Origin: Myxococcales bacterium
Lineage (GTDB): Bacteria; Myxococcota_A; Polyangia; Polyangiales; Polyangiaceae
Length of the DNA stretch: 51,014 nt
Assembly (NCBI GenBank): GCA_013297655.1
Contig: JAAFHV010000031.1
Span: 1-51,014, forward strand
Direction: 5' to 3'
Position numbers and translations under genes: made by a program. Of this stretch, positions 17,788 to 37,860 are shown in pieces (within the stretch, counting starts at the first letter, position 1; each line of letters opens with the position of its first letter). A model generated the notes under the pieces. That model was not told where the DNA came from. It saw only the letters and a program-made list of their open reading frames with translations, and ran no database searches.

Positions 17788-18133
17788 GAGGCAGGACGCT
17801 TTTCGCCAATACCTTCGCCTGGGCGTTGTCCCTCGTCAGGGACTTCCAAGGGTCGTCGGCCGTGCTCACCGACAGGAGTCGGCTCCGCGCGGCCTCCTAG
17901 CCCAGGCTCGGTCTCGACGAAAATCGTCCTACCTCCTCCTCGTTGGCTCGGCGTCGCGGCCGAAGTCGCGACGGGGCAGAAGGGGAGTGTTCTGCGGATG
18001 CGAAATCCTTGGGAGCCCGGATCGGGGTGATTTTGCGGTCGCGAGGGCTGCGCTGGGTGCTCGCGGGGTGGGGGTGAGCTGCGTAGGTTGCTCTGCATCG
18101 CCACACGGGAAAAGCCGTGGTACATCGCGCCGC
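17788..18133. other. Intergenic region before the LarA-like gene
   Basis: About 345 bases with no convincing gene. It contains a short hairpin, GTCCCT-CGTC-AGGGAC near 17838-17853, with no T-run, which might weakly terminate the kinase operon. The second half must hold the promoter of the LarA-like gene. Frames crossing it have shadow composition. Nothing else was recognised. Confidence 0.4.
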
Positions 18134-19714
18134 ATGAGCCACCCCTTGGTCGTCACGCTCGATCGGCGCAGCGCCCCGCGGACTATTTTTTCGGGCGATC
18201 GCCTCGTCGAGGTCGACATGCCAGCCGGCACGCGGGTCATTTACCCGAAGCCTCCCCTCGCTGGCCTGAAGGACGTGGACGCCGCCATCCGCTACGCGAT
18301 CAACCACCCGTACAACTCGGATCCGCTCCACGCGAAGCTTCGCCCGGGGATGAAGGTCGTCATCGCGATCGACGACATCTCCCTGCCGCTCCCGCCGATG
18401 CGCAAGCCAGACGTGCGCGAGCGCGTGCTCACGGTGGTGCTCGATCTCCTCGCCGACCACGGCGTGGAGGACATCGAGATGATCATCGCGACGAGCGTGC
18501 ACCGCCGCATGACCGGCCCCGAGATTCGCCACGTGGTCGGCGACAAGATCTTCAATGCCTACTACCCGGACCGCCTCTACAACCACGACGCGGAAGATCC
18601 GAAGGGCATGGTCGAGCTCGGGACGACGGAGCTCGGTGAGATCGTGGAGCTCAACCGCAAAGCGGTGGAGAGCGATCTTCTCATCTACGTGAACTTGAAC
18701 CTCGTCCCGATGGACGGCGGGCACAAGTCGGTCGCGGTGGGCCTCTGCGGGTACAAGAGCCTGCGCGCGCACCACAACCCGAAGACGATGCGCAACTGCC
18801 ACTCGTACATGGACCCCTCTTCGTCCGCGCTCGCGACGAGCGTGGAGCGCATGGGCCGCTTGGCGAACAAGAAGCTCAACGTGTTTACGATCGAGACCAC
18901 GATCAACAACCGCATGTTCGATCGTCCGCTCGAGTTCCTCGCCAAGAACGAGGACGACCTCACGGTGAGCGAGCGCGCCGCGCTGAAGGCCCTCACGTTC
19001 ACCCTCTCGCGCGTGCCGCAGCCGGCGCGGGAAGCTATTTTTCAGCGGGTCCCGAGCCCCTACGAAGTGACCGGCGTGTTCGCGGGGGAGACCGAAGCGA
19101 CCCACGAGCACACCCTCGCGAAGGCCTACGAGCAATACCTCGTGCCGATCAAGGGCCAGGCCGACATCCTCGTGACGGGCATTCCGTACATCAGCCCGTA
19201 CAACGTGAACTCGTTCCTGAACCCGCTCCTCGTGCAGGTGATGGCGCAGGGGTACCTGTTCAATCTCTACAAGGGTGTTCCGCTCGTGAAAAAGGGCGGC
19301 ACGATGATCATCACCCACCCGTGCACCGACCAATTCGACAAGGAGCACCACGCTCCGTACATCGAGTTCGTGCACAACCTGCTCCCGGAAACGCGCGACG
19401 CGATGGAGCTCCACAAGCGCTACGAGCAAAAGTTCGCGCAGAACCCGGCGTACATCCAGATGTACCGAACCGGCCACGCCTACCACCCGACGCATCCGTT
19501 TTTCATGTGGTACTGGGGCGAGGCGGGTCGTCAGCACCTCGGGCGCGTCATCGTCGTCGGCGCCGACAACGAGTACATCCCCAAGCTGCTCGGCTACGAG
19601 ACGGCCAAGTCGATGGCCGAAGCGCTCGAGATGGCAAAAGACACCGCCGGTCCGTCGCCGGAGATCACCATGCTCCACTCGCCCCCGATCATGATGGCGA
19701 GCTGCACGGCCTGA
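18134..19714 (+). CDS. LarA-like (lactate racemase domain, DUF2088) protein
   Basis: A 526-residue protein; ATG 18134 ([19 protein letters not shown]) is chosen because the upstream open frame is not protein-like. It follows the LarA fold order: an N-terminal domain with '[16 protein letters not shown]' (counterpart of the D-H-T-R-P region), '[14 protein letters not shown]' (counterpart of the A-x-G-x-H-R motif), '[20 protein letters not shown]' (counterpart of G-G-x-K) and '[17 protein letters not shown]'. LarA racemases use a nickel pincer nucleotide; this branch is longer and its Asp-Ile-Ser replaces the usual residues, so racemase activity is not assured. A single transcription unit, ending in a strong terminator. 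Confidence 0.75.
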
Positions 19715-19742
19715 CCCGAGACGCACCGCGTCCGATTGCCGT

Positions 19743-19779: not shown

Positions 19780-19797
19780 CTCGTGTAAGGTCTCACC

Positions 19798-21150: not shown

Positions 21151-21240
21151 TCGCGAGCTCCCTCCGCGCTCGCCTCTCCGCGCGCGGCGATCGGCGTGGG
21201 TAGTCCTCCCACGCGAAGACAAGCGCTGGAGCGCCCGCGC

Positions 21241-21275
21241 TTGACAATGGTTGCCTCTAGAGGAAACTATTTCCT
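21241..21275 (+). promoter_or_regulatory. Probable promoter/operator of the VOC-ArsR operon
   Basis: A TTGACA box (21241-21246) is followed by an 18-bp imperfect palindrome, GTTGCCTCTAGAGGAAAC (21250-21267), whose core CCTCTAGAGG is perfect. It overlaps a second dyad, AGGAAA-CTA-TTTCCT (21261-21275). A weak -10 candidate (AACTAT, 21265-21270) lies 18 bp after the -35. All sit just upstream of the first ATG (21280) of an operon that encodes an ArsR repressor, so autorepression at this dyad is a natural reading. Binding is inference. Confidence 0.55.
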
Positions 21276-21279
21276 CATC

Positions 21280-22960: not shown

Positions 22961-23021
22961 AGTCGCGGCAGTGCACGCGCGTCGGAGCGCGTTCGCGGGG
23001 CCATTTTGCTACTCTCCGCCC

Positions 23022-23513
23022 GTGCCCGCTCCGACGATTCGTGTCTGCTTCGTGTGCACCGGAAACATCTGCCGCTCGCCCACGGCGGAGGGCATCTTCA
23101 AGCGGCTCGTCGCCGACGCGGGGCTCGCGCACACCTTCCACGTCGAGAGCGCGGGCATCGACTCGTATCACGTCGGCGAGCGACCCGACCCACGCACCCT
23201 CCGCGCGGCCGAGGCGCGGGGGTACCGCCTCGATGGCCGCGCCCAACAATGGAAGGTGCGCGACTTCGACCGGTTCGACTACGTCGTCGCGATGGACCGA
23301 ACGCACGTCGGCTCGCTCGGTCGGCTCGCCACGAGCGAAGCAACGAGAGCGAAGATCTCGCTCGCGCGCGATCACGTCGCCGAAGGGCCACGCGACCTCG
23401 ACGTGCCCGATCCGTACTACGGCGAGCGCGAGGGCTTCGACGAGTGCGTCGACATCTGCCTCGCGGCCTGCACCGCGCTCCTCGCCCGTATTCGAAAAGA
23501 CCACGCGTTGTGA
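23022..23513 (+). CDS. Low-molecular-weight protein tyrosine phosphatase
   Basis: A 163-residue protein starting at GTG 23022. The catalytic P-loop 'CTGNICRS' (Cys12, Arg18) gives the C-x5-R-S signature, and the general acid Asp130 is present in 'DVPDPYYG'. 'DYVVAMDRTH' is another family landmark. It hydrolyses phosphotyrosine or small phosphate esters in the cytoplasm. The GTG is favoured because it places the P-loop at the usual position. Its TGA overlaps the GTG start of the next gene (GTGA), so phosphatase and kinase-like protein are co-translated. Confidence 0.92.
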   Translation: MPAPTIRVCFVCTGNICRSPTAEGIFKRLVADAGLAHTFHVESAGIDSYHVGERPDPRTLRAAEARGYRLDGRAQQWKVRDFDRFDYVVAMDRTHVGSLGRLATSEATRAKISLARDHVAEGPRDLDVPDPYYGEREGFDECVDICLAACTALLARIRKDHAL

Positions 23514-24337
23514 CCTTCGCCGACGAGCTCGAACGCGCGCTCGGGTCGCGCCCGCGAGACCCTTCCTCGCCGAGCGCCGGCGTGGTGGAGCTCCGCGACG
23601 GACGCCGCGTCTTCGTGAAGGCCCCGCGCGACTCACGCGCGCACGCGATGGTCGCCGCGGAGGAGCACGGGCTCGAATTCCTCCGCGGCCATAGCGAGCT
23701 GCGAGTCCCCGACGTGCTCGCGCGCGGCACCGATTTCCTCGTGCTCGAGGCGCTCGATCTTCGACCGCTCGAGGGCCCTTCTGCCGAGCGCTTCGGCCAC
23801 GCCCTCGCCGAGCTGCACCGAAGCGGCGCCCCGTCGTTCGGACTCGATCGCGACAATTTCATCGGCCTCACCGAGCAGCGCAACGAGCCCCATGCGCGCT
23901 GGGCCGACTTCTACCGCGACGAGCGCATCCTCGCCGTCGCCGCGCGCGCCAACCTCGAGCGCAGCACACGCGCCCTCGTCGATGCAGTCGCGAACAAGAT
24001 GGACGTTCTCGTCGGCGACGAGGAGCCCCCCGCGCGTCTTCACGGCGATCTCTGGTCCGGCAACGCCTGCGCCGACGCGAGAGGGGTCCCGTGTGTGTTC
24101 GATCCTGCCGTCTCGGGAGGCTCCCGCGAGCTCGACCTCGCGATGATGCGTCTCTTCGGAGGCTTTCCGCGCCGCACCTTCGACGCCTACGAAGAGAGCT
24201 TCCAGCTCTTACCCGGCCACGCCGATCGCGGCGCGCTCTATCAGCTCTATTTCTTGCTCGTCCACGTCGCGATCTTCGGAGAAGGCTACCAAGCCCAAAC
24301 CGACCGCTGTTTGCGCCGCATCCTAGAGAAGCACTAA
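23510..24337 (+). CDS. Fructosamine kinase family protein
   Basis: A 275-residue protein of the fructosamine/ketosamine-3-kinase family. N-lobe 'GGVVELRDGRRVFVK'-like strand with Lys, 'VPDVLARGTDFLVLEAL', then the phosphotransferase loop 'ARLHGDLWSGNACAD' and 'CVFDPAVSGGSRELDLAMM' carrying the metal-binding Asp. It phosphorylates sugar adducts on protein amines so that they fall off (deglycation). In bacteria it is commonly paired with a low-MW tyrosine phosphatase, as here, so the pair probably acts in one repair pathway. GTG 23510 overlaps the phosphatase stop. Confidence 0.88.
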   Translation: MTFADELERALGSRPRDPSSPSAGVVELRDGRRVFVKAPRDSRAHAMVAAEEHGLEFLRGHSELRVPDVLARGTDFLVLEALDLRPLEGPSAERFGHALAELHRSGAPSFGLDRDNFIGLTEQRNEPHARWADFYRDERILAVAARANLERSTRALVDAVANKMDVLVGDEEPPARLHGDLWSGNACADARGVPCVFDPAVSGGSRELDLAMMRLFGGFPRRTFDAYEESFQLLPGHADRGALYQLYFLLVHVAIFGEGYQAQTDRCLRRILEKH

Positions 24338-24413
24338 TCCGCAAACGCACCCTACCAAATCCGCCCCCGTGCAAGCCGCAAGACGCCGGTCTCGCAACCG
24401 CATCAAGCCGATC

Positions 24414-24480
24414 CTCTCTTCTCTCTTCTCTCTTCTCTCTTCTCTCTTCTCTCTTCTCTCTTCTCTCTTCTCTCTCTCTC
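24414..24480. repeat. Heptanucleotide microsatellite (CTCTCTT)8 plus (CT)n
   Basis: Eight perfect copies of CTCTCTT (24414-24469) followed by an 11-base CT run. It lies 77 bp after the fructosamine kinase-like stop in a non-coding stretch between convergent genes. The strand is pure pyrimidine for 67 bases, able to form triplex (H-DNA) and prone to slippage. Confidence 0.95.
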
Positions 24481-24525
24481 GTCCTTGCGACGAGACGTCT
24501 CTGGGTTGAGGGGTTCGGCACGGGG

Positions 24526-24675
24526 GCGGCTTTGGGATTGGGGGGTGGGGGGGTCCTGTGTCTGAGGCGAGTGCGTATGTTTGGGCTGGAAATACCCTCT
24601 GCGTCTCGCATGGACTTCGAAGAGCCTGTCAGCCGCCGAGTCCGGGGGGGACCCACCCCCCAATCCCAAAGCCGC
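24526..24675. repeat. Inverted repeat with 24-bp perfect G-rich arms
   Basis: The left arm at 24526-24549 begins GCGGCTTTGGGATTGGGG and ends GGTGGG. The right arm at 24652-24675 is its exact reverse complement over 24 bp. The arms are 102 bp apart. The left arm runs into further Gs, so the top strand has GGG-ATT-GGGGGG-T-GGGGGGG, a G-quadruplex-prone sequence. The unit may be a small non-autonomous mobile element or a genome-wide intergenic repeat; no transposase or target duplication was recognised. Confidence 0.75.
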
Positions 24676-24924
24676 ACCGGTGACGGCCCCGGCCTACCTG
24701 TCCGTGGTCTCTGGCTGGTCCCACACGCCCCACGCCCAAATCCAAGTCTTTCAGGCCCCGCCGCCCCACAGCCGTGTGCGCGCCGCGCACAAAAAACCAT
24801 GCCCCCGCGGGCCCCTTCCCGATGGTCCCGAGACTTCCGTTGGCGTCGTGCCGGAACGGACTCCCCACGACGCCCGCCTCGAGGGCACGTGTACGGGGCG
24901 AGACCGGAGCCACAAAAAGGACAG

Positions 24925-24956
24925 CCGCGGCACACCTGACGGTGCACCGCGGTTTT
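24925..24956. terminator. Bidirectional terminator hairpin
   Basis: CCGCGGCACACC (24925-24936) pairs with GGTGCACCGCGG (24941-24952) at 10 of 12 positions, with a 4-base loop, followed by TTTT on the plus strand. On the minus strand the same hairpin is followed after seven bases by TTTTT. It lies 19 bp beyond the stop of the minus-strand VWA gene and so can end transcription from both convergent sides. Confidence 0.6.
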
Positions 24957-24975
24957 CGTTCGAGGTCGACGCGAG

Positions 24976-26694
24976 TCACTTCGCCACGGCGATCCCCACG
25001 TTGGTCGCCGGCCGTTGCCCCGAGAGCTGCGCCGCCTTGTTCACGAGACCCACCAGCTCGAGCCGCTCCGCGCGCCCCTGGCTCGCGTCGTTCGCGATGC
25101 GGGCGACTTGGTCGAGACGCCACTCCGCAGCGAGGGGGCTCTTGCGGAGCACCTCGGCGAGCCCCACCACCGCGGTCGCGAAACGGAAGTCCGCCGAGGC
25201 CGACTCGAAGGTGCGCGCGATGCTGGTCGCGGGCATCGGGAAGACGCTCTCCTCCGCGCGCTCGCTGCCGGTCGGCGTCTTGTGGCGCACCCGCACGGTG
25301 ACGGGAGATTTGTCGGTCCGCGTGAGCACCACGTCGTAGAGGGCGGTCACGGTGTGGCCAGAGCCGACCTCACCGGCGTCGACCTTGTCGTTGCGGAAAT
25401 CGCGGTCCTTGATGTCGCGGTTCTCGTAGCCGAGGAGGCGGTAGGTGCGCACCACGCTCGGATCGAGCTCGACCTGGATTTTCACGTCGCGCGCGATCAC
25501 CTGGAGGAGGCCGTCGACCTGCTCGCCGAACACGCGCCGCGATTGCTCCTCCGAGTCGATGTAGCTGTAGTTGCCGTCGCCGGAGTCGGCGAGCGCCTCC
25601 ATCGTGGCGTCCTTGTAGTTGCCGGAGCCGAAGCCGACGGTGCTGAGGGTGATGCCCTCGCCGCGGTGGCCGTGGATGATCTTCTTGAGCTCCTCTTGGG
25701 AAGCGCGGCCCACGTTCGCGTCGCCGTCGGAGAGCACGACCACGCGGTTCACGTGGGTCTTCACGAGGGTTTTCTTCGCGAGCTCGTAGGCCATCGCGAG
25801 GCCGTCGCCCATCGCGGTCGACCCGCCGGCGCGGAGGCGCTCGATCGCGGCGAGGATGCGGTCTTTGTGCTCGATGCTGGTCGGATCGAGGATCTTTTCG
25901 ACGCCGCCGGCATACGTGCAGATCGCGACCGTGTCGCCGCGCTGGAGCTTGTCGGTGAGCACCTTGAGGCTCTTTTTTGCGAGCTCCATGCGATCGGCGC
26001 CGCCCATCGAGCCGCTCGTGTCGACGAGGTAAACGAGGTGGACCGGCACTCGCTCCGCGCCTTGCACCTTCTTGCCCTGGAGGCCCACGCGGAGGAGGTG
26101 GTGGCCCGGGGTGAACGGCGAGGGTGCCGCGTCGGTGTAGACTGCAAACGGTTTCTGCGTGGGCGCTTCGTAGCCGTAGCGGAAGTAGTTCACGTACTCC
26201 TCGACGCGGACCGAGGCGAAGGGCGGCAAGGTGCCCTCGTTCAGCTTGCGGCGCGAGATCGTGTACGAGGCGGTGTCGACGTCGATCGCGAAGGTGCTCA
26301 GGCGATCCTTCGAGGTATCCACGGTCGGGTTCACGCCGTGGTCTTGGTAGTGCTCGGTGCCGGTCGGCTCGGCGGGGGCGCCGGCGATCGTGGCGACCGG
26401 TTGGCTCTGCGCGACGGGGGCGGGCATCCCGGGGATCCCGGGCATCGGAGGGGCCGGGGGGGCCGGCACGGCGCCCGGGTTCACCTGGTACGTCGGCGCC
26501 CCGGCCGGCTGCGGCGCTTGGGGGTAGGCCTGCTGCTCCGGGTACCCGGCCGCGGGGTAGTCCTTCGTGCTCGCGACGGCCTCGGGGGCCCGCGCAGCGT
26601 GGTCCATCGTCCCGCCCGCGCCACATCCGACGAGGCCCGCGGCGAGCGGAACGAGCACGAAACAAGCGGACAGGGCGGCGCGGGACCTTCGCAT
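24976..26694 (-). CDS. VWA domain lipoprotein, YfbK-like
   Basis: A 572-residue lipoprotein; ATG 26694 has a good AGGAG at 6-7 bases. Lipobox LVGC with Cys24, a Pro/Ala/Gly-rich linker (residues 45-110), then the YfbK-type N-terminal VWF domain ('DRLSTFAIDVDTASYTISRR', 'VRVEEYVNYFRYGY'), a von Willebrand A domain with MIDAS 'DTSGSMGG' (Asp225, Ser227, Ser229), Thr and Asp partners ('GGSTAMGDGL', 'VVVLSDGDANVG'), and the C-terminal DUF3520-like part ending 'ATNVGIAVAK'. It probably binds a ligand through a metal at the membrane surface. Single gene, divergent from the acyl-reductase megaenzyme. Confidence 0.88.
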   Translation of the reverse strand: MRRSRAALSACFVLVPLAAGLVGCGAGGTMDHAARAPEAVASTKDYPAAGYPEQQAYPQAPQPAGAPTYQVNPGAVPAPPAPPMPGIPGMPAPVAQSQPVATIAGAPAEPTGTEHYQDHGVNPTVDTSKDRLSTFAIDVDTASYTISRRKLNEGTLPPFASVRVEEYVNYFRYGYEAPTQKPFAVYTDAAPSPFTPGHHLLRVGLQGKKVQGAERVPVHLVYLVDTSGSMGGADRMELAKKSLKVLTDKLQRGDTVAICTYAGGVEKILDPTSIEHKDRILAAIERLRAGGSTAMGDGLAMAYELAKKTLVKTHVNRVVVLSDGDANVGRASQEELKKIIHGHRGEGITLSTVGFGSGNYKDATMEALADSGDGNYSYIDSEEQSRRVFGEQVDGLLQVIARDVKIQVELDPSVVRTYRLLGYENRDIKDRDFRNDKVDAGEVGSGHTVTALYDVVLTRTDKSPVTVRVRHKTPTGSERAEESVFPMPATSIARTFESASADFRFATAVVGLAEVLRKSPLAAEWRLDQVARIANDASQGRAERLELVGLVNKAAQLSGQRPATNVGIAVAK

Positions 26695-26959
26695 GAGACT
26701 CTCCTCTGCGCGCTCGCGACCGGCCACCACCTCGGTGTCTCGGAGCTGCGCGGGTTGTGGGGGTCCGAACGAGGGCTCGGTTCGGCGCTTACACTCGCCG
26801 CGAAGATTTCCTTTTTACGGAACATCTAGACTCGGTGCGTTGCGGGATTCGCACCGGCGGCCCGTATTTTCCTGGGGTTCGGTTGAAGGAAGGGGGTGCC
26901 TGTTGTAGGTACGGCCGAGCCCTGTCGCCTCGTTTTCCGAGCGCCGGCTCCCCCCAGCC
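26695..26959. promoter_or_regulatory. Divergent promoter region (VWA lipoprotein / lipid megaenzyme)
   Basis: 265 bases between divergent starts must carry both promoters. A locally AT-richer patch (gaagatttcctttttacgg, 26801-26819) and a TTGCGG...TATTTT pair (about 26838-26874, spacing slightly long) are the best candidates, but neither is convincing. No operator-like dyad was found. Confidence 0.35.
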
Positions 26960-29900
26960 ATGCACCAGAACGGAATCTCGAACGGCGCCAACGGCGCCTC
27001 CCCCTCCAACGCTCCTGCCGCCGCGGGCCTCGCCCCTCTCGACGTGGCGCGGCAGCTCGAAGGAGCGCGCCTCCTCATCCTCGGAGGCACCGGCTTTCTC
27101 GGGAAGATTTTCTGGCTCATGCTCCTCGACCGGTACCCGGGGGTGGGCAAAATTTTCCTCCTCGTGCGCAGCTCGAAGAAGGCCACGAGCGAGCAGCGCT
27201 TCTGGAAAGACGTCGCGACGAGCGAGGCCATGCTCCCGCTCACCCAGAAGTACGGCGATGGCTTCGAGGCGTTCCTCCGCGAGAAGATCGTGCCCATCGA
27301 CGGTGACGTAGGGAACCCCAACTGCGGCATCGACGCCGATTGGATCCGCGATCACAAGGGCACGATCGACGCCGTGATCAACGTCGCGGGCGTGGTCGAC
27401 TTCAACCCGCCGCTCGACGAAGCGCTCGATACGAACGCGTTCGGCACCCAAAACCTGGTCTCGCTCTGCCGCGGCCTCGGCGACGCGCCGCTCTTCCACA
27501 CGAGCACGTGTTACGTGGTCGGCAACCGGAAGGGCCTCATCCAAGAGGACATCCCGGGCACGAAATATCCGTTCCCGCGGGCAGACGAGCTCGGCCGCGA
27601 GCTCTGGGATCCGGAGCGCGAGATCACCGACTGCCTCGACATCGTGGCGCAGGCGAAGAGCCGCTGCGAGGACGCGTTCCGCCAGAGCGAGTTCCAAGAG
27701 AAGGCGATGAAGAACCTCCTCGCGAAGGGCGAGCCGACTCACGGCGCGTCGCTCGAGGCGGAGCTCAAGAGCGTGAAGCGCCGCTGGGTGAGCGACAAGC
27801 TGGTGGACGCGGGCGTGGAGCGCGCCATCCACTGGGGCTGGCCGAACGTCTACACGTACACGAAGAGCATCGGCGAGCAGATCATCGCCCGCTCCGGAAT
27901 CACGTACCTCATCGCGCGCCCGGCCTGCTGCGAGAGCACGATCGAGTTCCCCTTCCCCGGCTGGAACGAGGGCATCGGCACCTCGGCGCCGATCGTGTTC
28001 CTCATCATGAAGGGCCACCACCAGGTGGTCGCGCGCGACGTGATCTTGGATTTTATCCCCGCCGACACCGTGTGCGCGGGCATGATCTTGAGCCTCGCGG
28101 AGCTGCTCGAGGGCACCCACAAGCCGGTCTACCAATACGGCACGAGCGACGTGAACCCGGGCACGAGCGATCGCCTCGGTGAGCTCATGGGGCTCTATCG
28201 CCGCAAGCACTACCAGCGCACGAACAAGGGCAACCCGTTCGTGAACTTCCTCCAGGCCCACTACGAGCCGGCGATCGTCGATCTCGATCGCTACAACGCG
28301 ACCGGCCCCGGGCAGATCGCGCGCGCCGCGCGCACCTTCTCGAAGATGCTCAAGTCGGCCCCCGGCCCCACCGCGAAGTTCGCGAAGCCGATGGCGAAGA
28401 GCCTCGACGGGTTCGCGTACCAAGAAGAGAAGATCGACATGATCATTCGTCTCTTCTTGCCGTTCACCTACGACCAGAAGGGCCCGTTCTCCTGCGGCAA
28501 CACGCGCGAGGCGTATGCCCGCGCCACCGCCGCCGACCGCGCGAAGCTCGCGTGGAACCCGGAGAAGCTCGACTGGGCCGACTACTTCATGAACCACCAC
28601 ATGCCCGCGCTCGAGAAGCGGGTCATCCCGTGGATGACGGAGCGCTACAAGAAGGAGCTCAAGCCCCTCAAGGCGCACCAGACCCTCGCCTCGCTCGTCG
28701 ATCAAATGGCCGAGCGGCACGAGCACGCGGTCGCGCTCGGGCGCTTCGAGGGCGACGACGGCTTCACCCGCGTCACGTATGCCGACGTGCTCGCGCGCGC
28801 CGAGGACGTCGCCTGCCGCCTCTTCGATCTCGGCGTGAAGAAGGGCGATCGTGTGGTGCTCGCGGGCAAAAACTGCCCCGAGTGGAGCATCGCCTACTTC
28901 GGTATCGTGCGCGCCGGCGCCGCCTGCGTGCCGATGGATCCGGACATGGAACCTGCCGCGTTCGTGAACGTGGTCAAAGAGAGCGAAGCGCGCGTCGCGA
29001 TTTTGGATCCACACGTGGAGCGTAAATCGGGGGCGGCCCTCGACGCCGACGTGGCCGGAACGAAGCGCCTCGATCTCCAGGCCGTGTGCGAGCTCGATCC
29101 GGGCCTCGCGCGACCGGCGGTCGAGATTTACGACGAGGACGTCGCGAGCCTTATTTTTACGAGCGGTACGACCGGGAAGCCCAAGGGCGTCATGCTCTCG
29201 CACGGGAATTTCACGTCGCTCATCGCGTCGCTCGCGCCTCTCTTTCCGCTCTCGACGAACGACCGTGTGCTCTCGGTCTTGCCGCTCCACCACACGTTCG
29301 AGTTCACCGCCGGGTTGCTGCTCCCGTTCTCGCGCGGCACTCGGATCTTTTACCCCGGCGAGCTCACCGGCGATCGCATCACGAAGGCGCTCAAGCAGGG
29401 GCGAATCACGGGCATGGTCGGCGTGCCGGCGGTGTGGCAGCTCCTCGAGCGTCGCATCCTCTCGCGCGTACACGCCAAGGGCCGCACGGTGGAGGCGCTC
29501 TTCGACGTGGGCGGCGAGGTGTCTCGTTTCCTCGCGAAAAGTACGGGGATCGACCTCGGACGCACCTTGTTCGGCACCGTGCACGACGAGCTCGGTGGCC
29601 ACGTGAAGTGGCTCATCTCCGGCGGCGCCGCGCTCCCGAAGGACACCCAGAAGCTCTTCACCGGCCTCGGGCTCAAGCTCACGGAGGGTTACGGCCTCAC
29701 CGAAGCGGCGCCCGTGCTCGCCGTCGCGAAGGCTGGCTCTCCCGCCGGGCAAGTGGGCAAAGCGATCCCGGGCGTGGAGCTCAAGATCGACGCGCCGGAC
29801 GCCGACGGCGTGGGCGAGGTGCTCGCCCGCGGCAAGAACGTGATGGTCGGCTACACCGACGGCGACGCCACCAAGTCCACGATCGACGCGGACGGCTGGC

Positions 29901-31675
29901 TCCACACCGGGGACCTCGGCAAGTTCGACAAGCAGGGCCGCCTGCAAATCGTGGGACGCTCGAAGGACGTCGTCGTCACGTCGAACGGGGAAAACCTGTA
30001 TCCCGACGATCTCGAGCGCTTGCTCGGCAACGTGGCCCACATCGAGGAGCTCGCGTTCGTCGGCGTCGACAACGCGGCCGGCGGAGAGCGCCTCGCCTGC
30101 ATCGCGGTCCCCAAGACCGACGACACCGTGACGCGCCACGAGCGCATGAGCCGCGCAGAACGCTCGCTCCGCGACGCGCTCGGCAAGCTCCCCTACGGCA
30201 AGCAGCCGTCCGTGGTTCACTTGTATGATGCACCTTTGCCGCGCACCTCGACGCGGAAGGTGAAGCGGATCGACGTGCGCCAGATCTTGCACCGCACGAT
30301 CGCCGCGACCCAGCGCACGAAGGACGAGGGGGTCACCCCCGTGCGCGCCGCGATCGCGGGGCTCAAGGGCCTCAAGCCCGCGGAAATCACGGGCGACATG
30401 ACGATCGCGGGCGATCTCGCGCTCGACTCTCTCGCCCTCACCGAGCTCCTCGCCGCCCTCGAATCGAAGGTCGGCACGATCGAGCCGGCGGAGCTGCAAG
30501 CGTGCCGCACCGTCGCCGACGTAGAGGTCCTCGTCGGCACCGAGCGGCAGAGCCTACGCCCGCAAAAAGCCGAGGTCGCCTCGCGCTACCGCATCGAAGG
30601 GCGCGCCAAGCCCCAAGACGACAAGGGCGACGACGCCTTCCTCCTCCCGCCGGAGATGCAGAACGCGGGCAAGAAGCTCATCGGCAAGCTGCAAGACGCG
30701 TTCTACGGCAACGTGATGAGCTCCAAGGTCTCGGGGCGCGCGTTCATCCCGCACAACCGAAACGTGCTCGTCGTCGCGAACCACGCGAGCCACTTGGACA
30801 TGGGCTTCGTTCGCCATGCCCTCGGGCCTTACGGCGAGGACGTGGTCACCCTCGCCGCGCAGGACTACTTCTTCGACAAGAACAGCATCAAGCGCGCGTT
30901 CTTCGAGAACCTCACGAACCTCAAGGCGATCGATCGTAAGAGCGGGCTCCGCGCGAGCGAACGGCAGGCCGGCGAGGTGCTCTCGCAGGGCAAGACGATG
31001 CTCATCTTCCCGGAGGGCACGCGCAGCCAAGACGGGGAAATTCACGAGTTCAAATCGTTCCTCGGTCACCTCGCGCTCACCTACGGGGTCGACGTGCTCC
31101 CCATCTACGTGGGCGGCACGTACCAATCGATGGGCAAGGGCGCGCGGGTGCCCACGCGTCGCGAGATCTTCGCCCGCATCGGCCCGGTGCTCGCGCTCTC
31201 GGACGTGAAGCGGCTCACCGCCGGGCTCTCCTACGGCGAGGCTTCTCGCGAGGTCGCGAAGCTCGCGCGGGCGGCGGTCGTGGCCCTCCGCGACGGCGAC
31301 GTGCTCGACCTCAGCCGCATCGAGTCGCTCGACGGCACCAAGAAGAAAAAAGAGCACCCGCTCGTCACGCTCTTCTCCGAGCTCGGCACCAAGTTCCGCA
31401 AAGAAAAGGTGGAGCGCCCGGTCTCGTTCTATTTCACCCTCGGCGGTGAGGATCAGGCCAAGTGGACGGTGCGCGTGAACGGCGAAGGCTGCCAAATCAT
31501 CAACGGAAAACCCGAAGGTGGCACCGCCGACTGCGTGCTCAAGACCAGCCCCGAGATCTTCACCAAGATCGTGAACGGCTACATGCCTAGCCCCGCCGAG
31601 TTCATCTCCGGCGCGATCAAGTCGAACGACGTGAGCCTGCTCATGGAGTTCCAGAAGGTCTTCGAGCTCGGCTGA
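26960..31675 (+). CDS. Multifunctional lipid enzyme: acyl reductase-acyl ligase-ACP-PlsC-SCP2 (ElbD-like)
   Basis: A single 1571-residue protein. (1) Fatty acyl reductase, residues about 35-580: 'GGTGFLGK' (42-49), Tyr298/Lys302 in 'YTYTK', and a FAR C-terminal part ('DWADYFMNHHMPALEKRVIP'). (2) AMP-forming acyl ligase, about 590-1110: 'LIFTSGTTGKPKG' (near 731), 'YGLTEAAP', 'GWLHTGD'. (3) Carrier protein, about 1115-1195: 'DLALDSLALTEL' with phosphopantetheine Ser1157. (4) PlsC acyltransferase, about 1210-1420: 'NHASHLD' (H-x4-D) and 'FPEGTRS'. (5) SCP2-like lipid-binding C-terminus, about 1440-1571. All key residues are present. It should activate a fatty acid, load it on the carrier, reduce it to the alcohol and acylate a glycerol backbone. 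As I recall, ElbD of the Myxococcus ether-lipid locus is such an enzyme. Two lipid genes follow. Confidence 0.9.
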   Translation: MHQNGISNGANGASPSNAPAAAGLAPLDVARQLEGARLLILGGTGFLGKIFWLMLLDRYPGVGKIFLLVRSSKKATSEQRFWKDVATSEAMLPLTQKYGDGFEAFLREKIVPIDGDVGNPNCGIDADWIRDHKGTIDAVINVAGVVDFNPPLDEALDTNAFGTQNLVSLCRGLGDAPLFHTSTCYVVGNRKGLIQEDIPGTKYPFPRADELGRELWDPEREITDCLDIVAQAKSRCEDAFRQSEFQEKAMKNLLAKGEPTHGASLEAELKSVKRRWVSDKLVDAGVERAIHWGWPNVYTYTKSIGEQIIARSGITYLIARPACCESTIEFPFPGWNEGIGTSAPIVFLIMKGHHQVVARDVILDFIPADTVCAGMILSLAELLEGTHKPVYQYGTSDVNPGTSDRLGELMGLYRRKHYQRTNKGNPFVNFLQAHYEPAIVDLDRYNATGPGQIARAARTFSKMLKSAPGPTAKFAKPMAKSLDGFAYQEEKIDMIIRLFLPFTYDQKGPFSCGNTREAYARATAADRAKLAWNPEKLDWADYFMNHHMPALEKRVIPWMTERYKKELKPLKAHQTLASLVDQMAERHEHAVALGRFEGDDGFTRVTYADVLARAEDVACRLFDLGVKKGDRVVLAGKNCPEWSIAYFGIVRAGAACVPMDPDMEPAAFVNVVKESEARVAILDPHVERKSGAALDADVAGTKRLDLQAVCELDPGLARPAVEIYDEDVASLIFTSGTTGKPKGVMLSHGNFTSLIASLAPLFPLSTNDRVLSVLPLHHTFEFTAGLLLPFSRGTRIFYPGELTGDRITKALKQGRITGMVGVPAVWQLLERRILSRVHAKGRTVEALFDVGGEVSRFLAKSTGIDLGRTLFGTVHDELGGHVKWLISGGAALPKDTQKLFTGLGLKLTEGYGLTEAAPVLAVAKAGSPAGQVGKAIPGVELKIDAPDADGVGEVLARGKNVMVGYTDGDATKSTIDADGWLHTGDLGKFDKQGRLQIVGRSKDVVVTSNGENLYPDDLERLLGNVAHIEELAFVGVDNAAGGERLACIAVPKTDDTVTRHERMSRAERSLRDALGKLPYGKQPSVVHLYDAPLPRTSTRKVKRIDVRQILHRTIAATQRTKDEGVTPVRAAIAGLKGLKPAEITGDMTIAGDLALDSLALTELLAALESKVGTIEPAELQACRTVADVEVLVGTERQSLRPQKAEVASRYRIEGRAKPQDDKGDDAFLLPPEMQNAGKKLIGKLQDAFYGNVMSSKVSGRAFIPHNRNVLVVANHASHLDMGFVRHALGPYGEDVVTLAAQDYFFDKNSIKRAFFENLTNLKAIDRKSGLRASERQAGEVLSQGKTMLIFPEGTRSQDGEIHEFKSFLGHLALTYGVDVLPIYVGGTYQSMGKGARVPTRREIFARIGPVLALSDVKRLTAGLSYGEASREVAKLARAAVVALRDGDVLDLSRIESLDGTKKKKEHPLVTLFSELGTKFRKEKVERPVSFYFTLGGEDQAKWTVRVNGEGCQIINGKPEGGTADCVLKTSPEIFTKIVNGYMPSPAEFISGAIKSNDVSLLMEFQKVFELG

Positions 31676-31688
31676 TCACGTCTCGTAC

Positions 31689-31705
31689 GCGTGCATCTTG
31701 CACGC
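31689..31705. other. Perfect 7-bp hairpin between megaenzyme and epimerase genes
   Basis: GCGTGCA-TCT-TGCACGC lies 14 bp after the megaenzyme stop in a 104-bp gap. There is no T-run, so it is not a classical terminator. It could be an mRNA processing or stability element within a lipid operon, or an operator. Confidence 0.35.
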
Positions 31706-31779
31706 AATCGTGGGGCGCGTCTCGGAGTGGTCCGCGCGCCTCGCCTGCCCCGTTTCGTCACGCAAAGGATCGATCGCAC

Positions 31780-32844
31780 ATGGCACGCATGCTCGTCACC
31801 GGCGCCACTGGATTTCTCGGCGCGCACCTCGTCGCGAAGCTTCTCGAGCGCGGAGACACCGTCGTCGCGCTCTGCCGCGGCGAAGGCCCCGACGTCACGG
31901 TGCAGGGAAAATCTGCGGAGATCGTGAGCGGCGACGTGCTCGACGCTTCGAGCGTGGAGCGCGCGGCGGCGGGCTGCGACGGCGTATACCACTGCGCCGG
32001 CAAGGTCTCCCGCGACGTGCGCGACGCGGAAGAGCTCCGCACGCTGCACGTCGAAGGCACCAAACGAACGCTCGACGCGTGCAAAGCGGCCGGCGTAAGG
32101 CGCGCAGTGGTCGCCTCCACGAGCGGCGTGGTCGCGGTCTCAGACGACGAGGACAAGGTCTCGACCGAAAAAGACGAAGCGCCGATGGGGCTCTTGAACC
32201 GCTGGCCCTACTACCGCTCCAAGCTCTTCCAAGAGAAGGCCGCGTTCGAGCGCAACGTGCCCGGCTTCGAGGTCGTCTGCGTGAACCCCACGCTCCTCCT
32301 CGGCCCTGGCGACCTCCGCGGCTCGTCGACGGAGGACGTGCGTCTCTTCTTGGAGAAGCGTGTCCCTGCGGTGCCGCCGGGAGGCCTCTCCTACGTCGAC
32401 GTGCGCGACGCGGCGGAGGGCATGATCCTCGCGATGGAGAAGGGCCGCCCCGGCTCCCGCTATTTGCTCGGCGCGAGCAACGTCACGATTCGTGAGTTCT
32501 TCGCCCGCCTCGAGCGCATCTCGGGGATCAAGGCCCCAATGATGCCGCTCCCGCGCGCGCCGGAGCTCTCCAAGATCGGGACCGACTTGCTCGAGAAGAT
32601 GCTCGGGCGCTTCGGGATGGCGCTCCCGGTCGATCCGGTGAGCCTCGATATGGCGCAGCACTTTTGGTACCTCGACGCCTCCCTCGCCGAGGCCGAGCTA
32701 GGCTGGTTCCCGCGCGACGCGGTGGAGACCCTGGTCGACACGGTGCGTGATCTGGAAGACCGCGGCGTGGTGTGGCCGGAGCCGGATTTCGTGCGAAAGG
32801 GCAGCCTCGCGTCGTACGTTCGAGGTGGAGACTCCGCCGTATGA
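31780..32844 (+). CDS. NAD(P)-dependent epimerase/dehydratase family reductase
   Basis: A 354-residue extended-SDR protein: 'MLVTGATGFLGAHL' nucleotide-binding motif at the N-terminus, 'VYHCAGKVSRD', 'STSGVVAVS' and catalytic Tyr144/Lys148 in 'YYRSK', then 'VVCVNPTLLLGPGD'. The 3-beta-hydroxysteroid dehydrogenase/dihydroflavonol reductase branch reduces or oxidises hydroxyl/keto groups on hydrophobic substrates. Placed after the acyl reductase-acyltransferase and overlapping the lipid kinase (ATGA), it could reduce a keto intermediate such as an alkyl- or acyl-dihydroxyacetone species. That role is inference. Confidence 0.88.
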   Translation: MARMLVTGATGFLGAHLVAKLLERGDTVVALCRGEGPDVTVQGKSAEIVSGDVLDASSVERAAAGCDGVYHCAGKVSRDVRDAEELRTLHVEGTKRTLDACKAAGVRRAVVASTSGVVAVSDDEDKVSTEKDEAPMGLLNRWPYYRSKLFQEKAAFERNVPGFEVVCVNPTLLLGPGDLRGSSTEDVRLFLEKRVPAVPPGGLSYVDVRDAAEGMILAMEKGRPGSRYLLGASNVTIREFFARLERISGIKAPMMPLPRAPELSKIGTDLLEKMLGRFGMALPVDPVSLDMAQHFWYLDASLAEAELGWFPRDAVETLVDTVRDLEDRGVVWPEPDFVRKGSLASYVRGGDSAV

Positions 32845-33773
32845 AAAAACCCGTGCTCGTCGTGAACCCGAAGTCCGGCGGGGGGAAAACCGGAAAGACC
32901 TTCGGCGCGATGCGCGGCACGATCGAGAAGCGGGTCGGCGAGTGCGAAATCCGGGAGACGGAGCGCGCAGGGCACGCGATCGCCCTCGCGGAAGAAGCGG
33001 CCTCCGAAGGGCACCCCCTCGTCGTCGCGGTCGGCGGCGACGGCACCTTCAACGAGGTCGTGAACGGCCTCATGAAGGCGAAAAAGAAGGGCCACGAGGC
33101 CGAGCTCGGGCTCATTGCGCAGGGCACCGGCGGCGACTTTCGTCGCTCCCTCGACCTCGAGCACCGCCTCGACAAGTACCTCGACGCGCTCACGAGCGGC
33201 CGCACCCGTCGCATCGACGTGGGCCTCCTCGAGCACGACGGCGGCAAGCAGCGTTACTTCGTGAACATCTTGTCGGCCGGCATGGGCGGGCTCGTCGACC
33301 AGTACGTGTCCGAGTCGTCGCGCGCGATGGGCGGCACCGCGGCCTACTTCTTCGCGTCGCTGAAGGCGCTCGTGAACGCCAAGCTCGGCCACGTGAAGTG
33401 CAAGGTCACCAAGGGCGGCGTCATCACCGAGCGCACCATCCCGACGATGATGATTGCAATATGCAACGGTCGTTTCTTCGGCTCCGGGATGAAGGTCGCC
33501 CCGATGGCCGAGGTCGACGACGGCATCCTCGAGCTCGTCGCGATCGGACAAACGTCCAAGCTCGGCTTCGCGCTCACCTCGAACGCGATCTACTCCGCCG
33601 GCCACATGAAGAGCGACTCCACCGTGCACATGCGCGGCGAGGAGATCGAGCTCACCCTCGAGAACGGCGACGCGACGCCGCATTTTCTCCTCGATTTGGA
33701 CGGCGAGCCCCTCGGCCCGCTCCCGATCAAGGTGAAGGTGGACCCGGGCGCCCTCGCGCTCCGCGTTTCGTAA
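32841..33773 (+). CDS. Diacylglycerol kinase family lipid kinase
   Basis: A 310-residue protein of the YegS/DagK/sphingosine kinase family: 'VLVVNPKSGGGKTGK' at the N-terminus, nucleotide-binding 'GGDGTFNEVVNG' (GGDGT, residues 65-69), 'GTGGDFRRSL' and 'NGRFFGSGMKVAPMAEVDDG', the last being the conserved lipid-kinase metal/lipid region. It transfers phosphate from ATP to a lipid hydroxyl such as diacylglycerol or alkylacylglycerol at the inner membrane face. Its ATG overlaps the epimerase stop, so it belongs to the same lipid operon as the megaenzyme. Confidence 0.9.
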   Translation: MKKPVLVVNPKSGGGKTGKTFGAMRGTIEKRVGECEIRETERAGHAIALAEEAASEGHPLVVAVGGDGTFNEVVNGLMKAKKKGHEAELGLIAQGTGGDFRRSLDLEHRLDKYLDALTSGRTRRIDVGLLEHDGGKQRYFVNILSAGMGGLVDQYVSESSRAMGGTAAYFFASLKALVNAKLGHVKCKVTKGGVITERTIPTMMIAICNGRFFGSGMKVAPMAEVDDGILELVAIGQTSKLGFALTSNAIYSAGHMKSDSTVHMRGEEIELTLENGDATPHFLLDLDGEPLGPLPIKVKVDPGALALRVS

Positions 33774-33794: not shown

Positions 33795-34601
33795 TCAGCG
33801 CCCGAGCTCGGCGCGCAGCTTCGCGAGCTCGGCCTCGGCGCGGTCGGCGCGCTCGGCCTCTTTCGCGGCGCGCTCGGCCTCTTTCGTGGCGCGGTCCTCG
33901 GCGTCCTCGAGGCGGAGGTCGCGTTCGCTCACCATGCGCTCGAGCATCCCCACGAGCTCGCCGCTGTCGAGAACTTGCGCGGTGTCGTTGAAGAACCGAA
34001 GCCGTCCGTCGACGATCGCGAGATCCAGCCCCAACACGGCCGAGGGGATGCGACCGCCCTGGCCGAGGAGAGGCACGTAGACCTTGGACGCGCCGGAGAG
34101 GTGAAACCCGCGCAGCACCTTCTTGCGAACGTCGAACGTGAAATACTCTTGGATCCCGAGACGCGCGTACTCACGCACGTTCTCCACGGTGTCCTTGTGC
34201 TTGCGGCCGAGGTTTCGCAGCTCGAGCACGAAGTCGATCCCTCGCCCCTCGCGCGCGACGAGCCAGCTCTCCACCTCTTTGTCCGGATCGGTGTCGCGCA
34301 CGGCGAGGATGTCCGGCGCGAAGACCTCTTCCCCGGGGTAAAACACGGCGAGCTCGGACGCGAGGAAGATACGGCGACGCGCGCGCTCGAAAAAATCCGA
34401 CAGCGTGGTGAGCGCGCGTGTGTTCGGCCGCGAGTGGCGCGTGCCCTCCGCCATCGCCTCTTGCATCGAGTCGAGGATCGTCAGGATCTGGTCCACCGCC
34501 GCGTCTTGCTGCTCGACCGACATGGCGTTCCACGTCGCCTCGTCTGGCGCGCGCGGGAAAACCAAAGGAGGCTTGGAAGGGGGACGGACCGGTTCGCTCA
34601 T
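33795..34601 (-). CDS. Uma2 family (DUF820) protein with C-terminal coiled coil
   Basis: A 268-residue protein with the Uma2/DUF820 restriction-endonuclease-like core: 'HSRPNTRALTTLSDFF' (helix), 'FAPDILAVRD' with the catalytic Asp, 'GIDFVLELRNLGRKHKDTVENVREYARLGIQEYFTFD' with the E-x-Lys type residues. In many Uma2 proteins the motif is P-D-x(n)-E-x-K; here it is 'VLELR', so the last basic residue is Arg. The C-terminus (about 215-268) is a charged coiled coil of EAERA repeats. Biological role uncertain. Convergent with the lipid operon and divergent from the sigma factor gene. Confidence 0.8.
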   Translation of the reverse strand: MSEPVRPPSKPPLVFPRAPDEATWNAMSVEQQDAAVDQILTILDSMQEAMAEGTRHSRPNTRALTTLSDFFERARRRIFLASELAVFYPGEEVFAPDILAVRDTDPDKEVESWLVAREGRGIDFVLELRNLGRKHKDTVENVREYARLGIQEYFTFDVRKKVLRGFHLSGASKVYVPLLGQGGRIPSAVLGLDLAIVDGRLRFFNDTAQVLDSGELVGMLERMVSERDLRLEDAEDRATKEAERAAKEAERADRAEAELAKLRAELGR

Positions 34602-34724
34602 CGGCGGCCAGGAAAGAGCGTAGCACCGGCCACGATCCGCGCGCGAGGAAGGGAAATGTCGGACGAGAATCGAATCGTGGAATGGCGGTCACGAATTCGC
34701 GTGGCATGCCTCTCACGGTTCTGA

Positions 34725-35591
34725 ATGACTGCTCCCGACGACCCTTCGAAGTCCCCGACGACAGAATCCCTGTCGAAGGACGATCCTCTCGCCCCTCTCG
34801 CAGAGCGTGCCCTCGAAGGCGACAGCGACGCGCTCGAAGCGCTGTGCCGCGCGCTCTCGGGTCCACTTTTTCGCCTCGCGGTGAGGCTCCTCGACCACCC
34901 GGAAGATGCGCGCGACGCGACGCAGGAGGTGCTGGTGCTCGTCGCGACGCACCTTTCGCAGTTTCGGTCCGAGAGCCGCCTCCTCACGTGGGCGTATGCG
35001 ATCGCGACGCGCCATCTCCTTCGGACGCGCAAGAAGCTCGTGCGTGTGCGGAGCATGGAGCGGCTCGAGGGGACCATTCGAATGGGCCTCGAGGTGACGG
35101 CGCCGACGAGCGTGCCCGAAGGCGACGCACGCCTGCTCGCGCGCGAGACGCAGATCGGTTGCACCCAGGCGATGCTCGCGTGCCTCTCGCTCGAGGAGCG
35201 GGTCGTGATCGTGCTCAGCGAGGTGCTCGCGGCAGACGACGCGCTCGGCGCGCGGCTAACCAGGATCTCGACGGTCACGTATCGCAAGCGGCTCTCCCGC
35301 GCGCGGAACAAGCTGCGACCCGTGCTGGAAGAGCTCTGTGGCCTCGCGCGCCCCGACGCGCCGTGCTCGTGTACGCGTCAGTCGCGCGCGAAGGAGATTG
35401 GCAATCTCCCACCTCCGAAGATAGCGCGCCTCCCGGTGATCGCGAACGACGTGAGCGTCGCGATGGAGAGCCTCGGCGCCTTGCGAAGACTGGGTCCGCT
35501 CTTCGCGATCGATCCGCCGCTCGCGCCGCCCGAGGATCTGTGGGAGCACGTCCGCGCGAACCTGCCCGCGTTGCTCGGAGGTGTGGGATGA
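34725..35591 (+). CDS. ECF-type RNA polymerase sigma factor with C-terminal extension
   Basis: A 288-residue sigma-70 family protein. Region 2: 'LFRLAVRLLDHPEDARDATQEVLVLVATHLSQF' and 'LLTWAYAIATRHLLRTRKK'. Region 4: 'LSLEERVVIVLSEVLAADDALGARL' and 'YRKRLSRARNKLRPVLEEL'. Beyond it lies an extension of about 80 residues that starts with a Cys pair (DAPCSCTRQSRAKEIG), also seen in related ECF factors, which may bind metal or self-regulate. No anti-sigma gene is adjacent; its ATGA overlap with a zinc alcohol dehydrogenase gene suggests that the enzyme is its co-expressed partner. Confidence 0.88.
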   Translation: MTAPDDPSKSPTTESLSKDDPLAPLAERALEGDSDALEALCRALSGPLFRLAVRLLDHPEDARDATQEVLVLVATHLSQFRSESRLLTWAYAIATRHLLRTRKKLVRVRSMERLEGTIRMGLEVTAPTSVPEGDARLLARETQIGCTQAMLACLSLEERVVIVLSEVLAADDALGARLTRISTVTYRKRLSRARNKLRPVLEELCGLARPDAPCSCTRQSRAKEIGNLPPPKIARLPVIANDVSVAMESLGALRRLGPLFAIDPPLAPPEDLWEHVRANLPALLGGVG

Positions 35592-36691
35592 AGCAGCTCT
35601 TCTTCCTCGCCCCCGGCGATCTCGCGTGGGACGACGTGGAGGCCCCCGTCCTCGAAGGCCCCGGCGAGGCGATCGTGAAGCCGCTCGCGGTCGCGCGGTG
35701 CGATTTGGACGCCGCGATCGTGGGCGGAGAGGCGCCGTTTCGTGGGCGCGCGCTCCATTTCCTGCGCAATCATTTGCCGGAGCGAGTGGGTCAAAAGGGC
35801 CTCTTCAAGAATGCTCCTTTCCGTGGCCCCTACCCGCTCGGGCACGAGTGTGTCGCAGAGGTGCTCGCGGTGGGGAGCGACGTGACGAGCTTCGCGAAGG
35901 GCGATCGGGTGGTCGTCCCGTTTCAAATCTCGTGCGGCGCGTGCGAGCGATGCAAGCGCGGGCTCACCGCGAGCTGCACCGGCGTGCCCCCACGATCGAT
36001 GTACGGATTCGGCGCCCTCGGTGGAATGCGCTGGGGCGGCATGCTCTGCGACGCGGTTCGCGTGCCGTTCGCAGAGGCGATGCTCGTCGCTGCACCGAAG
36101 GGAGTCCCGAACGCGCTCCTCGCAAGCACGGGCGACAACGTGGTCGATGGGTATCGCACAGTGGCGGAGCCGCTCGCGAAAACGCCGAGAGCGCCGGTGC
36201 TCGTGGTCGGCGGATTGGCGACGAGCGTGGGCCTCTACGCGGTGGCGTGCGCGCGGGCCCTCGGCGCGAGCGAGGTCGTGTACCACGACGTGAATCGTGA
36301 CAGGCTCGAGCTCGCCGAGAAGCTCGGCGCGAAGGTCGTGGAGGGGCCCTATCGCACGCAGCGCGGAGGCTACCCGATCACCGTCGACGCGAGCGCGACC
36401 CCCGCCGGTCTCGCCGCGGCGATGCTCTCCACCGAGCCGGGAGGCACCTGCACCAGCGTCGGCATCTACTACGACGAGCGCACCCCCGTGCCCCTCCGCG
36501 GGGCGTACGGCATCGGGCTCACCTTCGTGACCGGCCGTGTGCAAGCGCGCACCGAGCTTCCCCACGTGCTCGCCCTCCTCGCCGACCAGCGCCTCGACAT
36601 CACGGCGGCGACCACCCTCGTCGCGCGCTGGGACGACGCCGCCGAAGCGATGAAGCACCGCGGCGCGAAGGTCGTCGTCAGTCGCGACTGA
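35588..36691 (+). CDS. Zinc-dependent alcohol dehydrogenase family protein
   Basis: A 367-residue medium-chain dehydrogenase/reductase. Catalytic-zinc ligands Cys38 and His86-Glu87 ('YPLGHECVAEVLAVGSDV'), structural-zinc cysteines 116, 119, 122 and 130 ('CGACERCKRGLTASC'), and a Rossmann-type 'VLVVGGLATSVGLYAVACARALGA'. The usual G-x-G-x-x-G is degenerate (G-G-L-A-T-S), so cofactor binding is not guaranteed but the rest of the fold is intact. It oxidises an alcohol or polyol in the cytoplasm; substrate unknown. The ATG at 35588 overlaps the sigma factor stop by 4 bp. Confidence 0.87.
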   Translation: MKQLFFLAPGDLAWDDVEAPVLEGPGEAIVKPLAVARCDLDAAIVGGEAPFRGRALHFLRNHLPERVGQKGLFKNAPFRGPYPLGHECVAEVLAVGSDVTSFAKGDRVVVPFQISCGACERCKRGLTASCTGVPPRSMYGFGALGGMRWGGMLCDAVRVPFAEAMLVAAPKGVPNALLASTGDNVVDGYRTVAEPLAKTPRAPVLVVGGLATSVGLYAVACARALGASEVVYHDVNRDRLELAEKLGAKVVEGPYRTQRGGYPITVDASATPAGLAAAMLSTEPGGTCTSVGIYYDERTPVPLRGAYGIGLTFVTGRVQARTELPHVLALLADQRLDITAATTLVARWDDAAEAMKHRGAKVVVSRD

Positions 36692-37389: not shown

Positions 37390-37860
37390 ATGCCCAACAT
37401 CTCCTTCTTCGTGAACGGTCGCGCGGTCTCCATCGATGCCCCGGAGGACACCCCGCTTCTTTGGATTCTGCGCGAGGAGCTCGGCCTCACCGGCACCAAG
37501 TTCGGCTGCGGGATGGCGCTTTGCGGTGCATGCACCGTACACGTAGAAGACCTGCCCGTTCGTGCGTGCATGGCGCGCCTCGGCGAGGTGGCCGGCAAAC
37601 GGGTGCTCACCATCGAGGGCCTCGGGCAAAACGGGCTCCACCCGGTGCAAGAGGCTTGGCTCGAAGAGAACGTGCCGCAGTGCGGTTATTGCCAATCGGG
37701 GCAAATCATGGGCACCGTCGCGCTCCTCCGCAAAAAGCCGAAGCCCACGGACGAAGACATCGACGCCGTGCTCTCGTCCCACCTCTGTCGTTGCGGCACG
37801 TATTGCCGTATCCGGCGCGCCGTCCACCGCGCGGCGGAGAAGATGGGAGGCACGCCGTGA
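37390..37860 (+). CDS. 2Fe-2S subunit of a molybdenum hydroxylase (isoquinoline 1-oxidoreductase alpha-like)
   Basis: A 156-residue subunit with two [2Fe-2S] domains. The plant-ferredoxin-like N-terminal cluster has Cys40, Cys45, Cys48 and Cys60 ('[14 protein letters not shown]'); the helical C-terminal cluster has Cys98, Cys101, Cys133 and Cys135 ('QCGYCQSGQ', 'HLCRCGTY'). All eight ligands are present. It passes electrons from the Mo centre of the downstream subunit outward. It has no signal and probably rides out with its Tat-targeted partner. It overlaps the partner's GTG start by 4 bp (GTGA). Confidence 0.93.

Follow-up and report, generated by a model that had tools for sequence, protein, structure and literature searches.

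What would a bacterium make with a protein that joins, in one reading frame, a fatty acyl reductase, an AMP-forming acyl ligase, a carrier domain, an acyltransferase and an SCP2-like tail, and what are a short-chain dehydrogenase/reductase (SDR) and a lipid kinase doing directly behind it? The question is raised by three adjacent genes in a 51,014 nucleotide stretch of DNA from a Myxococcales bacterium (phylum Myxococcota; contig JAAFHV010000031.1), the whole of which is called the window here. The background is that ether-lipid synthesis in aerobic bacteria is largely unsolved and that, according to PMC9131029, the source of the ether bond in Myxococcus xanthus is not settled. The features under discussion, both within the window and elsewhere in the same genome (G000), are collected in Table 1.

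Table 1. Features of the locus, its borders and related genes in the same genome (window positions unless a contig is given)
Feature	Position	Strand	Basis and remarks
elbC homologue, Lar_N / lactate-racemase N-terminal domain family	18110..19714	+	82% identical to G037 ElbC; start approximate
YfbK-like VWA lipoprotein	24976-26730	-	Pfam; one border of the three-gene unit
elbD-like multidomain gene	26960..31675	+	single 1571-aa frame
Fatty acyl reductase region, residues 27-556	27038..28627	+	Pfam NAD_binding_4 8e-44; GGTGFLG, YTYTK
AMP-forming acyl ligase domain, residues 582-1110	28703..30289	+	Pfam AMP-binding 2e-75; motifs
Carrier (PP-binding) domain, residues 1128-1188	30341..30523	+	Pfam 3e-7; DSL, phosphopantetheine Ser1157
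PlsC-type acyltransferase domain, residues 1256-1384	30725..31111	+	Pfam Acyltransferase 1e-19; NHASHLD, FPEGTRS
C-terminal tail with SCP2-like domain (Pfam match residues 1491-1568)	31247..31672	+	Pfam, tail profile, conservation
elbE-like extended SDR, NAD-dependent epimerase/dehydratase family, 354 aa	31780..32844	+	YYRSK; Pfam, synteny
DAGK_cat/YegS-type lipid kinase, 310 aa	32841..33773	+	GGDGT at residue 65; start overlaps elbE stop (ATGA)
Uma2-family protein	33795-34601	-	Pfam; other border of the three-gene unit
AGPS-like protein (L122)	G000:C523:15405-16259		closest solved relatives are alkyl-dihydroxyacetonephosphate synthases; HHH motif
AGPS-like protein (L123)	G000:C334:17855-18601		closest solved relatives are alkyl-dihydroxyacetonephosphate synthases; HHH motif
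CarF/PEDS1-like desaturase, Lipid_desat protein (L124, P0001)	G000:C116:13009-13530		PF10520; PEDS1 histidines

The ElbD-like protein

Pfam places the domains of the large protein in the order NAD_binding_4, AMP-binding, PP-binding, Acyltransferase (PlsC) and SCP2. Among proteins of known structure the reductase region matches the fatty acyl-CoA reductase 7eoz (1e-42, over residues 27-556), and the ligase domain matches malonyl-CoA and long-chain acyl-CoA synthetases. The motifs are intact throughout, with GGTGFLG at residue 42 and YTYTK at 298 in the reductase, TSGTTGKPKG at 734 and YGLTE at 911 in the ligase, DSL with Ser1157 in the carrier, and NHASHLD at 1274 and FPEGTRS at 1350 in the acyltransferase; in all four catalytic or carrier domains they are also kept in relatives. 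Pfam domains, motifs and orthologues alike bear out the 1571-residue, five-domain frame of the preliminary description and, judged from full-length orthologue alignments, conserved motifs and recurrence in dozens of genomes, such a gene is far beyond chance. A minus-strand frame at 26789-30499 was considered as a gene and rejected, being a shadow frame of elbD with no support.

ElbD relatives were sought in 141 genomes of the phylum and in a separate set of 59 closer relatives. A colinear match in one piece is present in 34 of the 141, with about 10 more having it in two pieces or as fragments, and among the 59 most members of the same family have an ElbD match. A plasmid search with the protein yielded partial relatives of the ligase and acyltransferase only. 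The carrier motif varies: throughout one clade (L098, L101, L106, L107) it is SSL or GSL, not DSL, the serine being kept and the aspartate lost. Two further ElbD-like proteins, those of L114 (7592-12295, in G154) and L115 (7662-12437, in G075), have no carrier domain, and while L115 has a degraded ligase P-loop (TSGSGGQPKQV), L114 has an altered A10 motif. They are either decaying copies or enzymes that work with a separate carrier.

How real is the SCP2-like tail? With the whole protein as query, SCP2 (PF02036) scores 20.4 bits (7e-4), just under the gathering cut-off of 21.3 bits, and with the isolated tail 25.0 bits, above it. Run against the PDB, a profile of the tail built from 32 sequences picks up no domains other than SCP-2-like ones (best E 1.4e-4). 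Its best solved relatives are the SCP-2-like domain of peroxisomal multifunctional enzyme type 2 (HSD17B4), where the setting differs in that the domain is fused to beta-oxidation enzymes, and in eukaryotes. Structure models made from two-sequence alignments (window plus L009), one covering the PlsC domain and the tail and the other just the tail, had a pLDDT of 36-37. The tail had been suspected of setting this locus apart from elb; it is not special to it, being present in 38 of 41 ElbD-like proteins of the phylum, deep branches included. The three that are without it (L096, L099, L105) fall together in a single clade of the tree, so that a single loss or, depending on the root, a single gain explains the pattern. 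The literature searched contained no mention of ElbD together with SCP2 or a sterol carrier, and the tail is a conserved and apparently undescribed part of these ElbD-like proteins.

A probable dispersed elb cluster

In M. xanthus the gene order, as given in PMC9131029, is elbB (HAD), elbC, elbD, elbE. How much of this is kept around the ElbD-like genes of the phylum? Synteny was counted over 41 loci, made up of L009 and 40 neighbourhoods, each at most 20 kb long. The clusters given by the all-against-all comparison of neighbourhoods include shadow frames, and none was used without support from Pfam or synteny. An ElbE-like SDR is downstream of ElbD, usually less than 100 bases away, in all of these loci except L079 (G090) and L094 (G092), that is in 39 of 41. 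Immediately upstream of elbD the comparison, with Pfam, gives a Lar_N protein (the elbC homologue) in 27 of the 41 and a HAD hydrolase (the elbB homologue) in 25. The ElbD of L079, despite having no adjacent ElbE-like SDR, is one of the proteins most closely related to that of the window.

The SDR of the window sits at the ElbE position, which disposes of the earlier suggestion that this epimerase/reductase might be unlike elb. As a hopanoid-associated sugar epimerase it was rejected, its score against HpnA (TIGR03466) being 212.7 bits, far under the cut-off of 367.65.

When the genome was searched with the elbC gene that lies next to elbD in G037, a homologue turned up within the window (match at 18110-19708), on the same strand as elbD and 7 kb upstream of it, and an elbB homologue with 69% identity to the G037 copy is on contig C25. 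The preliminary description had taken 26960-33773 as the whole locus and its three genes as a complete set; elbC, which probably belongs to the cluster, lies outside that stretch, and elbB is on another contig. The approximately 7 kb that separate elbC from elbD (19715-26959) hold genes for a Sel1-repeat protein (19798-21150, plus strand), a glyoxalase-family protein (22144-23694, plus strand) and the VWA lipoprotein, together with unassigned frames, and it looks as though an insertion had divided the cluster here. Since elbC is 7 kb upstream and elbB on another contig, the window can be regarded as having a partly dispersed elb cluster, a known form, with unlinked elb genes already described for myxobacteria (PMC9131029). 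On domain order and synteny the locus is most likely the ElbD/ElbE pair of such a dispersed cluster. Further downstream, the window has a zinc alcohol dehydrogenase frame (34418-36691, ADH domains at residues 414-721) and a large subunit of the molybdopterin-dependent aldehyde oxidase/xanthine dehydrogenase type (37461-40127).

The lipid kinase gene and its distribution

The third gene scores 139.5 bits against the YegS/Rv2252/BmrU family (TIGR00147), above the NCBIfam cut-off of 118.65, and its presence, like that of the SDR, after elbD and on the same strand agrees with what had first been described. Its start is most likely the ATG at 32841, with a 4-base overlap with the SDR stop, rather than the GTG at 32772, and since that start lies inside the SDR stop codon, elbE and the kinase gene look translationally coupled.

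In the window and in six further loci (L080, L081, L082, L108, L109, L113) the gene immediately after elbE encodes a YegS-type kinase; in L009 such a gene is 4.6 kb beyond elbE, and for G160 and G167 the elbE-kinase order is implied by match coordinates. All loci with this order are in one subclade of the ElbD tree. The early remark that the kinase pairing may differ from elb thus holds, as a real difference restricted to that subclade. A genome-wide search, with orthologues at 46-58% identity and paralogues at 40% or less, revealed orthologues unlinked to elb in G149, G154, G161 and G181, and others in genomes without any ElbD match (G141, G146, G158, G162). On gene order, then, elbE-kinase coupling is real and not obligate, and with orthologues in genomes lacking an ElbD match, and unlinked in several others, the kinase may have a wider role.

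Other arrangements are relevant. Related families have a separate-gene cluster (L133-L140) with genes for a HAD protein, a fatty acyl reductase (FAR), a thioester-reductase-like SDR, a PS_pyruv_trans-like protein, an AMP ligase, an enoyl-CoA hydratase-like protein, a second AMP ligase, a YegS-type lipid kinase and a TetR protein. The four loci chosen only for having separate FAR and ACS genes (L134, L135, L136, L140) all have an ElbB-like HAD, and in 4/4 a kinase of the same family is beside the ACS. Those chosen for kinase-ACS adjacency (L137, L138, L139) have a PlsC gene beside the kinase. The separate-gene FAR/ACS/HAD clusters provide independent support for pairing of the kinase with this chemistry.

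AGPS-like proteins and a CarF/PEDS1-like desaturase elsewhere in the genome

No known ether-bond former is among elbD, the elbE-like SDR and kinase genes, and AGPS-like proteins are encoded elsewhere, so the proposal of an alkyl glycerolipid being built from a single operon went too far. The two AGPS-like proteins match alkyl-DHAP synthase structures with E values of 7e-57 and 5e-61. Both genes are away from other lipid genes, having as neighbours MTHFR/homocysteine methyltransferase and pirin genes (C523) and TPM/LemA genes (C334).

The Lipid_desat protein of C116 has equivalents of the eight essential PEDS1 histidines, of the PEDS1-specific ninth (H131), and of D100 and F118. In a survey of 27 genomes CarF was confined to Cystobacterineae and, otherwise, N. 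exedens (PMC9304148). In the present work PF10520 matches were found in 96 of 379 genomes of the phylum, and the ten best other matches, which were the ones examined, keep the PEDS1-type TRHxF/RHD region. Could these genes be strays in a draft of 546 contigs? The CarF and AGPS contigs resemble the window in both G+C content and tetranucleotide usage, which speaks against a foreign origin for them and makes contamination unlikely.

What the locus may make

We consider it likely that the locus belongs to a dispersed myxobacterial elb (ether-lipid) cluster, its mechanism being drawn from ElbD genetics and domains. In favour of this are the ElbD domain order, colinear orthologues, elbB/C/E synteny, intact motifs, the coupled kinase, and the AGPS-like and CarF/PEDS1-like proteins encoded in the genome. 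As to the genetics, PMC9131029 has elbD being needed for most of the alkyl and vinyl ether lipid in M. xanthus and elbE contributing, with an insertion in elbA leaving ether lipids unaffected. The same paper has the ACS and ACP activities of M. xanthus ElbD confirmed in vitro and its FAR and acyltransferase activities undetected.

In the proposed scheme the ligase domain would adenylate a free fatty acid and load it onto the protein's own carrier at Ser1157, and the reductase domain would then reduce this carrier-bound thioester, giving a fatty aldehyde or alcohol. Acylation of an acceptor of the glycerophosphate or dihydroxyacetone-phosphate type would fall to the PlsC domain, with the SCP2-like tail perhaps holding hydrophobic intermediates and the ElbE SDR carrying out a linked redox step. 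The ether bond itself could arise in an ElbD-dependent step or with the help of the unlinked AGPS-like proteins. The kinase may phosphorylate a glycerolipid, for instance (alkyl)acylglycerol, allowing neutral ether lipid to enter or re-enter the phospholipid pool, a step that would be opposite to that of the HAD phosphatase ElbB. It is tempting, but we think it unlikely, to go further and envisage one lineage having wired ElbD-type ether-lipid synthesis to a dedicated glycerolipid kinase, with the tail as an in-line shuttle of alcohol or lyso-lipid between domains and, courtesy of the unlinked AGPS-like and CarF/PEDS1-like proteins, true plasmalogens being made outside the group to which CarF was thought nearly confined.

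Would other products not be served as well by these domains? Ligase and reductase might yield alcohol, PlsC phosphatidate and the kinase ordinary diacylglycerol salvage, with the locus making fatty alcohols, wax-ester-like or acylated storage lipids, not ether lipids. All the domains fit this equally well, the locus is without an ether-forming enzyme, FAR-type reductases feed alcohol to wax esters as well as to ether lipids (PMC11948995), and there are ElbD carriers without detected ether lipids, Pontiella with its ElbD homologue being a case (PMC11868695). Nevertheless, synteny of elbB, elbC and elbE ties the locus to a cluster genetically linked to the ether lipids of M. xanthus, AGPS-like proteins are encoded in the genome, and we regard this reading as distinctly improbable. 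A lipid-like secondary metabolite, for which the ElbD-like protein would release a reduced acyl chain in the manner of an NRPS-like enzyme, and the SDR, kinase and ElbC would tailor a product that has no glycerol, seems very improbable indeed given that glycerophospholipid chemistry is what the PlsC and DAGK-type domains indicate and that a protein conserved so very widely in the phylum is more in keeping with a housekeeping lipid than with a specialised metabolite. Its attraction is that cluster-mining tools call ElbD homologues NRPS-like and that versions in sponge symbionts differ in predicted ligase specificity (both PMC9426513), while ElbC, with its resemblance to the N-terminal domain of lactate racemase, has no evident place in ether-lipid synthesis.

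A narrower doubt concerns the kinase, which might lie outside the pathway and merely be encoded by the next gene. Its unlinked orthologues, and those in genomes with no ElbD match, speak for this; the 4-base overlap with elbE in the window, the same order in the six further loci, which are spread over the subclade, and the independent pairing of its family with FAR/ACS/HAD clusters count against a bystander, and we take this to be rather unlikely. The conserved tail and the lineage-specific coupled kinase provide two concrete handles on bacterial ether-lipid synthesis: the tail is open to deletion, and the kinase makes alkyl- or acylglycerol a possible intermediate. The separate-gene cluster, with its HAD, FAR, ligases, kinase and sometimes PlsC, divides the same chemistry among single enzymes, which lend themselves more readily to assays.

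Relation to known systems

ElbD of the Myxococcus elb locus was named at the outset as the closest described system, and so it is: set side by side by published description, M. xanthus ElbD (ABF88003.1) has FAR1-like, ACS, ACP and AGPAT-like domains in the order found here, as PMC9131029 has it. In the M. xanthus cluster (Lorenzen et al. 2014, via PMC9131029) the NAD-dependent epimerase/dehydratase ElbE adjoins ElbD, as in the window. Unlike that cluster, the window has elbC 7 kb away, elbB is unlinked, and a lipid kinase gene is third. The SCP2-like tail is unmentioned in the descriptions of M. xanthus ElbD that we found, the comparison being one of descriptions.

The MXAN_1676-1674 operon (AGPS, a FAR1-GNPAT fusion and an SDR) is on the same biochemical theme, and the genome considered here also has AGPS-like proteins, but their genes (C523, C334), unlike those of that operon, stand alone. 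ElbD-like clusters of sponge symbionts in Acidobacteriota and Poribacteria have FAR, ACS, thiolation and acylglycerolphosphate acyltransferase combined in a single protein, as here, though the flanking genes are others and PMC9426513 mentions neither an SCP2 tail nor a kinase. Aas-type acyl-[ACP]-phospholipid O-acyltransferase fusions (PRK08633, PRK06814) combine acyltransferase and AMP ligase, and match the ligase part; unlike the window protein they are without a reductase, carrier or SCP2 domain, and its scores against the two NCBIfam models, 174 vs a cut-off of 1221 bits and 164 vs 1349 bits, are far under. The ElbD/elb type was, then, already known; the added lipid-kinase gene is a real difference, and the tail is a feature that has been little noticed.
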